Assembly: GCA_018267285.1 (NCBI GenBank)
Contig: JAFDYU010000019.1
Span: forward strand, 264,039-328,038
Direction: 5' to 3'
From: Bacteroidota bacterium
Lineage (GTDB): Bacteria; Bacteroidota; Bacteroidia; Cytophagales; Cyclobacteriaceae
Length of the DNA stretch: 64,000 bases
The first letter of the stretch is position 1, and each line of letters begins with the position of its first letter. The notes beneath the pieces are model-generated. The model saw only the letters and a program-made list of their open reading frames with translations, ran no database searches and was not told the origin of the DNA. Both the position numbers and the translations under genes were made by a program. Shown piece after piece: positions 28,897-30,429 of the stretch.

Positions 28897-29421
28897 TCAA
28901 AGCCCTAATCGATCGGCTCTTTTTTGAAAAAGTGGACGTAGAATAGTGCGGTCAAGCAATATCAATGCTAACAAAGCATTAATCATCACGATGATTTTAA
29001 CTACAAATTTTATGTCGTAACTGACAGTTGGTGTTTTCACCCAATCCGTTTTTAAAATGCCGTTATTGAAATTAATAAGTGTGTGCCATTGGTCGAAAAC
29101 ACCAGTCGAGGCGAGCAATAGCGCTAAAGCGGAAGCGATGACCAACCCAATTAAAAGAAGCAATCCGTTTTTTGGCGAAAGCAAATTAGATGAAACCTGC
29201 CGGTGCAGGCCGGCCATCACTTTATTTGTAAAGACTTTTGAGAGCTGTTCAACGCCTGCTTGATTTTTTAAAATTAGGTGGACGGCCTCCAACTCTTTCA
29301 ATCGGTTTAAATGAGTTTGGTTGTTTGCAATTTTTTCAATTAGTGCCTTACGCTCTGCATCGGTTCCGTTACCATCGAGATAACTTAATAATTGTTCATC
29401 CGATATTTTAATTGATTCCAT
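28897..29421 (-). CDS. Putative anti-sigma factor, membrane protein
   Basis: This 174-aa protein lies 2 nt downstream of an ECF sigma gene, the usual place for its anti-sigma factor. The N-terminal cytoplasmic part (DEQLLSYLDGNGTDAERKAL) resembles the start of zf-HC2-like anti-sigma domains, without the zinc-binding His/Cys residues. Two membrane segments follow (around LLLLIGLVIASALALLLAS and VVKIIVMINALLALILL). The assignment rests on context and the N-terminal pattern. Confidence 0.75.
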   Translation of the reverse strand: MESIKISDEQLLSYLDGNGTDAERKALIEKIANNQTHLNRLKELEAVHLILKNQAGVEQLSKVFTNKVMAGLHRQVSSNLLSPKNGLLLLIGLVIASALALLLASTGVFDQWHTLINFNNGILKTDWVKTPTVSYDIKFVVKIIVMINALLALILLDRTILRPLFQKRADRLGL

Positions 29422-29423
29422 AA

Positions 29424-29981
29424 CTATAAAGTTAGTGCTTCTTCTTTTAATATTTTTTTCAGTTCATCGGCCAACCGCTGCCTTGCGCGATGTACCCGCA
29501 CCTTGAGCGTGTTTATATTTTGCCCCAGCATTTCGGCAGTTTCTTCCAACGAAAACTCTTTAATATAATACAGTTGCACAGCTACCCGGTCTGCTTCCGT
29601 TAATTTTTCGATAGCTTTGGTTACAAACTTTTTCTTTTCTTCTTTTTCTATTTCATCATCGGATTTGCCTGCGTACTCAATATGGTTTTCGATACTCTGA
29701 AATTGAATTTTATTTTTCCGTTTGTAACTGATGGCTGTATTAAATACAATCCTATACAACCAAGTGCTGAACTTCGCTTCGCGGTTAAATTTTTTTAAAT
29801 AATGAAACGCCTTGATAAAGCCATCTTGGGCTATTTCTTCGGCCTCGGCTCTGTTCCCAACAACTTTTAGCGCAATGGTAAACGCATAACTCTTATACTT
29901 ATCTACCAATACGGCATATTGGGCTTCTTCGCCCGCAATAACCCGGTCGATCAGCGAATATTCTTGCGTTGTTGTGATCAC
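29424..29981 (-). CDS. ECF-type RNA polymerase sigma factor
   Basis: This 185-aa sigma-70 family factor has region 2 (YKSYAFTIALKVVGNRAEAEE, DGFIKAFHYLKKF, FSTWLYRIVFNTAISYKRK) and region 4 (LPxx-like EADRVAVQLYYIKEFSLEE, then TAEMLGQNINTLKVRVHRAR). It begins with GTG at 29979-29981. The gene is followed immediately by a putative anti-sigma factor. Upstream is a symmetric pair of candidate ECF promoters, so autoregulation is likely. Confidence 0.93.
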   Translation of the reverse strand: MITTTQEYSLIDRVIAGEEAQYAVLVDKYKSYAFTIALKVVGNRAEAEEIAQDGFIKAFHYLKKFNREAKFSTWLYRIVFNTAISYKRKNKIQFQSIENHIEYAGKSDDEIEKEEKKKFVTKAIEKLTEADRVAVQLYYIKEFSLEETAEMLGQNINTLKVRVHRARQRLADELKKILKEEALTL

Positions 29982-29985
29982 AGCC

Positions 29986-30016
29986 CTTTGACGCTTGATT
30001 TTAAAATTAAGTTACA
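29986..30016 (+). promoter_or_regulatory. Candidate ECF-sigma promoter toward DUF6249 gene
   Basis: CTTTGACGC (29986-29994), a 16-nt spacer and GTTACA (30011-30016) form a -35/-10 pair identical to one on the opposite strand. The 16-nt spacing is standard for ECF promoters. A start near 30023 would give a ~70-nt leader. Confidence 0.6.
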
Positions 30017-30038
30017 CGTAAAAAAGTATATTTTTGAA

Positions 30039-30069
30039 TGTAACCGATCGGGCAGAGGCTGCGTCAAAG
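30039..30069 (-). promoter_or_regulatory. Candidate ECF-sigma promoter toward the sigma/anti-sigma operon
   Basis: Read on the minus strand, CTTTGACGC (30061-30069), a 16-nt spacer and GTTACA (30039-30044) repeat exactly the motif and spacing on the plus strand. The two -10 boxes face each other across 22 nt, so the predicted 5' ends overlap slightly. This points to autoregulation of the sigma gene. Confidence 0.6.
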
Positions 30070-30093: not shown

Positions 30094-30429
30094 ATGGGAC
30101 CGGAAATTATTGGGGTGATGATCCCCATCATCTTATCGATCGGAGCATTCATCACCATTGTTTACCTCCGCAAATTTCAAAACCTCGAACGGATGGCCAT
30201 TATTGATAAAGGGCTTGACCCGGGGCTTTTCAAAAAAGAAAGCACTTCGGCCCCAACGTTGAGGCTTGCGTTGTTGTTGATAGGCGCGGGGGTTGGGCTG
30301 CTTCTCGGGTATTTCCTCGATCGTACCTGGGATATGGAGGAAGTGGCCTATTTCTCAATGCTCTTTGTCTTTGGCGGGCTTGGCTTAGGCCTGGCTTATA
30401 TTATTGAAGAAAGAAAAGCAAAACGATAG
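30094..30429 (+). CDS. DUF6249 membrane protein
   Basis: This 111-aa protein has three predicted membrane helices (residues ~5-25, 57-77 and 88-106). A short basic loop with the pattern RKFQNLERMAIIDKGLDPGL follows the first helix and is typical of the DUF6249 family in Bacteroidota. No enzymatic motif is visible. It is divergent from the ECF sigma gene and preceded by the same promoter motif, so it may be a target or partner of that system. Confidence 0.78.
   Translation: MGPEIIGVMIPIILSIGAFITIVYLRKFQNLERMAIIDKGLDPGLFKKESTSAPTLRLALLLIGAGVGLLLGYFLDRTWDMEEVAYFSMLFVFGGLGLGLAYIIEERKAKR

Follow-up and report, generated by a model that had tools for sequence, protein, structure and literature searches.

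What is the role of an 84-bp element, built from two inverted copies of the same pair of short blocks, that separates an ECF sigma factor gene from a divergent DUF6249 gene, and in which direction is it read? The element lies in the window, the whole stretch of 64,000 nucleotides analysed here, and a preliminary description took it for two promoters facing each other. We consider it very probable that it consists instead of two divergent ECF promoters, placed back to back and of the form TGTAAC-N16-GCGTC, which serve the sigma and DUF6249 genes and are read by the adjacent ECF factor. On this reading the features of the locus are as follows:

28897..29421, minus strand: probable membrane anti-sigma factor gene, 2 nt past the sigma gene, with an RsiW profile match
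29424..29981, minus strand: ECF sigma factor gene, GTG start, 185 aa, with Pfam Sigma70_r2 and Sigma70_r4_2
29981, minus strand: predicted transcription start of the sigma operon, the first base of the GTG codon (motif position 36)
29990..29994, minus strand: -10 box of the sigma promoter, GCGTC (in the arm GCGTCAAAG of the preliminary description, 29986-29994)
30011..30016, minus strand: -35 box of the sigma promoter, TGTAAC, extended to TGTAACTT at 30009-30016 (from the sequence and the family motif alignment)
30017..30038, no strand: 22-bp spacer between both -35 boxes, variable in length and sequence in relatives
30039..30044, plus strand: -35 box of the DUF6249 promoter, TGTAAC, then C
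30061..30065, plus strand: -10 box of the DUF6249 promoter, GCGTC (in the arm GCGTCAAAG, 30061-30069)
30074, plus strand: predicted DUF6249 transcription start, the A of a conserved CAA (motif positions 35-37), with a leader of about 20 nt
30094..30429, plus strand: DUF6249 gene, 111-aa protein, PF19762 with E 9.5e-20

Pfam matches bear out the two neighbours named in the preliminary description, an ECF sigma gene and a DUF6249 membrane gene. The sigma protein consists of regions 2 and 4 only, with Sigma70_r2 and Sigma70_r4_2/r4 as its sole Pfam matches, and residue 170 of its 185 is the last of region 4. No NCBIfam equivalog within the best 25 of 91 matches reaches its cut-off. For the anti-sigma candidate, neither Pfam nor NCBIfam gives a match at E<=0.001. 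A profile built from 42 orthologues matches RsiW (5wuq) with E 5.1e-5 over profile positions 10-78, with weaker matches to RseA (E 0.031) and RsrA (E 0.055), and a fold search with the predicted model also places RsiW first, at an E of 3.3 that is not significant.

The DUF6249 protein is predicted to form three long helices (mean pLDDT 86, pTM 0.55), and this fold has no match in the PDB at E<=0.001. DUF6249 proteins share a motif, approximately N-x-ERMA-x-IEKG-x-DP, where predicted helix 1 ends and the next loop follows (residues 30-42, window 30181-30219); it is a candidate interaction site. A literature search for DUF6249 returned nothing beyond unrelated work on bean receptor kinases.

The blocks are present where the preliminary description placed them: CTTTGACGC at 29986-29994, GTTACA at 30011-30016, TGTAAC at 30039-30044 and GCGTCAAAG at 30061-30069. 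On either side of the element 16 nt separate the blocks, and the two spacer sequences are unrelated. The full pattern matches the 64-kb window twice with no mismatch and nowhere else with three or fewer. Because shuffled sequences give a mean of 1.97 matches when three mismatches are permitted, loose matches are expected by chance, and the two stand out from chance by being exact. The core TGTAAC-N16-GCGTC has exactly two occurrences in the 64 kb, a count that none of 100 dinucleotide shuffles gave.

Relatives of the locus and the direction of reading

Our comparison is based on a core set of 45 loci: the window, 15 loci from named genomes (sigma identity at least 54%, out of 80 fetched) and 29 family loci. 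The last of these were reached via the anti-sigma protein, which matched 42 of 196 genomes; 30 of the 42 gave loci, the window's own among those 30. The DUF6249 gene is divergent from the sigma gene in 37 loci, co-directional with it in seven and absent from the locus in one.

Motif rows were selected for TGTAAC and GTC no more than 60 nt upstream of the sigma start, or 130 nt for DUF6249. Identity of the core letters therefore arises by construction and distances are bounded; independent evidence of conservation comes from the remaining positions alone, and family loci share descent so that counts are not independent events. With this in mind, of the 38 loci in which DUF6249 is either divergent or missing, 36 have the sigma-side motif, and of the 44 loci that have the gene, 37 have the DUF6249-side motif (30/37 divergent, 7/7 co-directional). 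Mononucleotide-shuffled intergenic regions yield the sigma-side motif 0.0003 times per locus. Each locus that misses the motif on the sigma side (L140, L142) or on the DUF6249 side (L042, L045, L121, L129, L130, L136, L140) has one core base changed and keeps the spacing of 17 between TGTAAC and CGTC. With a stricter CGTC pattern, the 37 divergent loci divide into 26 with both copies, eight with the sigma side only, one with the DUF6249 side only and two with neither. The preliminary description had proposed the same divergent region in relatives as a check; conservation of the blocks there is directly observed, as is their co-occurrence with the sigma gene.

The motif extends well beyond this family. 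Among 47 more distant loci (L046-L092), 33 have a divergent DUF6249 gene (detected at E<=0.01, some weakly), and 25 of these carry both motifs, two the sigma side alone and six neither. A relaxed pattern adds the second side in the two; of the six, it finds both sides in four and one side in two. Record titles of the distant loci with both motifs include Flavobacteriaceae and Bacteroidales. In the remaining 18 loci (L093-L110) there is no DUF6249 match, and the motif is seen solely in L093.

Could the element be an imperfect large palindrome, a set of operators for a repressor or activator rather than promoters? Its inverted-repeat layout, common to both divergent genes, would suit such a role. 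Yet the gap between the two start codons varies from 112 to 343 bp among the 37 divergent loci, and the separation of the half-sites is thus not fixed; the spacing that is kept is the one between every copy and its own gene. Single copies also persist in the co-directional loci, and either half by itself fits an ECF promoter. We therefore regard operators as extremely improbable and continue with promoters.

Which way do these promoters point? In the preliminary description CTTTGACGC was the -35 box and GTTACA the -10 box, which places the promoters face to face with transcripts that overlap at their 5' ends and could compete. The blocks and the 16-nt spacing are compatible with either direction. 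According to excerpts of PMC3426412, however, ECF promoters typically have AAC as part of the -35 and CGT as part of the -10 region, a consensus that makes TGTAAC the -35 and GCGTC the -10 box, and that the face-to-face arrangement inverts.

The relatives in which DUF6249 has another position are decisive here. In all seven co-directional loci, where DUF6249 lies upstream of the sigma gene and in line with it, one copy precedes DUF6249, with TGTAAC followed by CGTC towards the gene (AGTC, one base changed, in L137 and L138). In these loci the gap between DUF6249 and the sigma gene has no promoter match with up to two mismatches, and the 130 bp upstream of DUF6249 hold no opposite-pointing copy with up to one. 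In genome G024 no DUF6249 is detectable within the 3.5 kb of the sigma locus, and the strongest match to our promoter model is on another contig, upstream of a relocated DUF6249 gene and pointing at it; this copy was absent from the training set of the model. Furthermore, the block nearest to the sigma start codon in the scored rows is the GTC block, never TGTAAC.

The co-directional loci and the relocated gene, with TGTAAC upstream and the GTC block beside the gene, lead us to reject the face-to-face arrangement, and we assign it a next to negligible probability. Each half is best read outward as TGTAAC, N16, GCGTC, so that the promoters diverge and each faces its nearer gene. The notion of two copies of one ECF-type promoter is well supported by the comparison of relatives, and the recognition motif proposed for this sigma group is real, although it must be read as TGTAAC-N16-GCGTC. 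With outward-pointing promoters the 5' ends are separate and do not overlap, so competition between them does not arise, and the transcription start once expected 6-9 nt after GTTACA falls with the reversed polarity. The housekeeping TAnnTTTG box shows no excess in the family intergenic regions, with 5/37 towards sigma and 2/37 towards DUF6249 where shuffles expect 3.5 and 2.4.

A further observation in G024 concerns the surroundings of the relocated gene. There, DUF6249 and its promoter copy lie directly downstream of a Peptidase_M50 gene (L156, G024:C11, 30-1397 and 1558-1902), which carries PDZ domains and is of the RseP-like site-2 protease type. RseP-like site-2 proteases cleave anti-sigma factors in other bacteria.

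Predicted transcription starts and the bases after the -35 boxes

For both genes we took the first in-frame start codon after the -10 box. Within the bounds set by the row selection, sigma start codons lie 5-13 nt past the -10 box in 36/36 rows and DUF6249 start codons 22-33 nt past it in 35/37; the exceptions are L142, at 16 nt, and L038, where the rule picked a GTG at 4 nt and the ATG is at 22. On the sigma side, a GTG lies 8 nt past the -10 box in 17 of the 36 rows and an ATG 11 nt past it in 13, with the other six within 5-13 nt. The window belongs to the first kind, with 8 nt from CGTC to GTG.

Bases further along the motif (counted from the T of TGTAAC) point to the starts themselves. 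On the DUF6249 side positions 35-37 read C-A-A in 23, 28 and 24 of the 30 rows with the common spacing, and on the sigma side positions 36-37 read G-T in 32 and 30 of 35 rows; in the window this G-T is the start of the GTG codon. If the start offset is equal on both sides, the sigma mRNA begins at its own start codon. We thus predict that the sigma mRNA is leaderless or near-leaderless. The DUF6249 leader shows no RNA structure beyond that of shuffled sequences. Leaderless mRNAs appear scarce in this phylum in excerpts of three reports: 5.5% of mRNAs in F. psychrophilum (PMC9723704), about 3.7% of 5' UTRs shorter than 10 nt in B. thetaiotaomicron (PMC7366714), and leaderless mRNAs in one of 37 Bacteroidetes/Chlorobi genomes in a computational survey (PMC3160421).

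The two promoters also differ right after their -35 boxes. In the family set (L031-L045, L114-L142 and the window) TGTAAC is followed by TT on the sigma side in 35/36 rows and by C on the DUF6249 side in 36/37, counts that are not independent as the rows are related by descent. The window bases concerned are 30009-30016 on the sigma side and 30039-30045 on the DUF6249 side. Among the 65 distant loci (L046-L110), 36 have the motif, and 66 of the 67 copies read TGTAACC on whichever side they lie. The TT is therefore a feature of this sigma's closer family.

Reach of the proposed circuit and its paralogue

How many other genes might this sigma factor control? Across the genome of 3.33 Mb, the 15-base pattern is matched exactly twice, both times at this locus; no match has one mismatch, and a single match has two. 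The one-mismatch search suggested in the preliminary description thus returned no further site. With up to three mismatches there are 56 matches against 105 for a reversed-pattern control, and hence no genome-wide enrichment. Two candidates were rejected: C17:8833, the sole two-mismatch match, is inside a long open reading frame, and C1:40764, a third exact match to TGTAAC-N17-CGTC, lies antisense within an open reading frame.

We also built a sequence model from 58 promoters and searched 16 genomes that carry the system, with 150 candidates per genome scored in full. The 32 matches at E<=0.5 comprise 28 at the locus, one at the relocated DUF6249, two within open reading frames and one upstream of a permease gene; since all 16 genomes supplied at least one training sequence, the locus matches arise largely by construction and it is the scarcity elsewhere that is informative. 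The two matches within reading frames (G173 and G152, in what looks by eye like a transporter adaptor) were discarded. In the window's genome, where 150 of 533 candidates were scored, a threshold as loose as E<=10 still gave just the two sites. A large regulon is thus unsupported in this genome, and the regulon looks private to sigma, anti-sigma and DUF6249 as judged from these searches; given the 150 of 533 candidates scored, a wider regulon of weak or degenerate sites may exist.

The permease case deserves a mention of its own. In G033 a promoter-like match, TGTAAC..GCGTCCAAGG, lies on the minus strand upstream of a MacB/FtsX-type permease gene (L172, G033:C3:496459; E 0.08), and this gene is perhaps an extra target there.

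A useful contrast is provided by 16 genomes of the family without a detectable anti-sigma orthologue, 12 of which gave no model match. The two best matches in this negative set, in G005 and G004, fall at new ECF genes with a DUF6249 gene in divergent orientation (E 1.1e-19 and 1.7e-19). Behind each of these ECF genes lies a short gene that does not match the anti-sigma query. Both promoters are present in G004, and the sigma-side promoter in G005 by the strict pattern. The three other matches in the negative set have nothing nearby that matches the sigma, anti-sigma or DUF6249 queries. That the model found unseen ECF-DUF6249 divergons shows that the motif can lead to the circuit when the locus is not known beforehand. 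A literature search, which did not extend to the EcfO paper or the ECF reclassification, found no published TGTAAC ECF motif for Bacteroidetes.

The window's genome hosts a second such circuit, a paralogous divergent ECF-DUF6249 pair (L112, G000:C23:6745-10047) with TGCAAC as its -35 box. The pattern TGCAAC-N16-GCGTC has four exact matches in this genome, at C23:8088, C6:100824, C5:167863 and C1:179953, against none for the reversed control. Each is in the sense orientation upstream of a gene, the genes being the sigma paralogue, two permeases (MacB_PCD and FtsX domains) and a DUF2807 gene. The two circuits are possibly insulated from each other by this one -35 base, TGTAAC or TGCAAC.

The paralogue bears on a remaining alternative, that the two promoters are genuine ECF promoters whose main reader is a different ECF factor in the cell. 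Promoters can be shared between ECF factors, and the paralogous pair supplies a candidate. However, the promoter of the paralogue and the three other exact matches have TGCAAC rather than TGTAAC, and in two of the 16 negative-set genomes the best model matches fall at diverged copies of the same gene pair. We judge this alternative to be unlikely, and retain the adjacent sigma factor as the reader of both promoters.

How might the circuit operate? The membrane anti-sigma factor would hold the ECF factor at the membrane until its release, and the released factor would then recognise both promoters, as their linkage and co-occurrence with its gene suggest. Leftward, it would drive the sigma and anti-sigma genes, probably as one transcript, and so amplify its own operon. 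Rightward, the second promoter would drive DUF6249, which could be an output or a feedback part. The factor would have few or no other strong targets. Activation by the sigma factor of its own gene and of the anti-sigma gene, with DUF6249 as co-target, had been anticipated from the window and remains probable.

Significance and comparison with known systems

Local autoregulating ECF circuits are already known, and this locus is a well-supported further example. Less usual are the predicted leaderless sigma gene, the difference between TT and C after the -35 box and the paralogous TGCAAC circuit. These results supply an ECF group of the Bacteroidota with a promoter code that is open to test, TGTAAC-N16-GCGTC, and they tie DUF6249, a little-studied membrane family, to an ECF circuit across the phylum. 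They also predict that the sigma mRNA is leaderless or near-leaderless as a conserved trait, in a phylum with few such mRNAs, and correct the reading direction of the promoters ahead of start mapping.

A more ambitious reading is a stress module found throughout the Bacteroidota. This would comprise an ECF factor with essentially one partner, DUF6249, as a dedicated feedback component or effector; a sigma gene that is leaderless by design; promoters tuned by TT and C in this family; and paralogous circuits insulated by TGTAAC versus TGCAAC. If true, the amplification of sigma and the DUF6249 output would differ in strength or translation under stress. We put this forward tentatively, and consider it somewhat doubtful.

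ECF41 circuits are a close parallel. In excerpts of PMC3426412 they have the promoter TGTCACA-n16-CGTC, and the neighbouring genes are the sole targets detected. As here, a group-specific promoter lies upstream of the sigma gene and/or its neighbour, and the upstream co-directional neighbour usually carries the promoter. The excerpted text gives ECF41 factors a fused C-terminal regulatory domain, where this locus has a separate membrane anti-sigma gene, and neighbours that are decarboxylases, oxidoreductases or epimerases, where this locus has DUF6249. Although the two circuits would work similarly, we rejected an identity with ECF41: with region 4 reaching to residue 170 of a 185-aa protein, there is no room for the large C-terminal extension, and the -35 box is TGTAAC, not TGTCACA.

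The M. tuberculosis sigE gene is, like the sigma gene here by prediction, an ECF gene with a leaderless mRNA. It differs in that two papers disagree on the promoter responsible: a review assigns the leaderless mRNA to a SigE-transcribed promoter (PMC10027907), and another report to a different promoter with a WhiB7 motif (PMC4921905). Within the phylum, the SM6 motif of F. psychrophilum, in excerpts of PMC9723704, also comprises ECF-type promoters with a CGT -10 box and targets that include an ECF/anti-sigma pair; SM6 is tied to secretion-system genes.

In SigW/RsiW and RpoE/RseA, as here, a membrane anti-sigma gene directly follows the sigma gene, and the N-terminus of our anti-sigma candidate matches RsiW. 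SigW and RpoE control many genes, whereas the regulon here appears private. The locus has features of the general pattern of an autoregulated ECF operon: a sigma factor of regions 2 and 4 only, preceded by an AAC-type -35 box and a CGT-type -10 box some 16 bp apart, and an adjacent gene with an anti-sigma domain (2-nt gap, RsiW E 5.1e-5).
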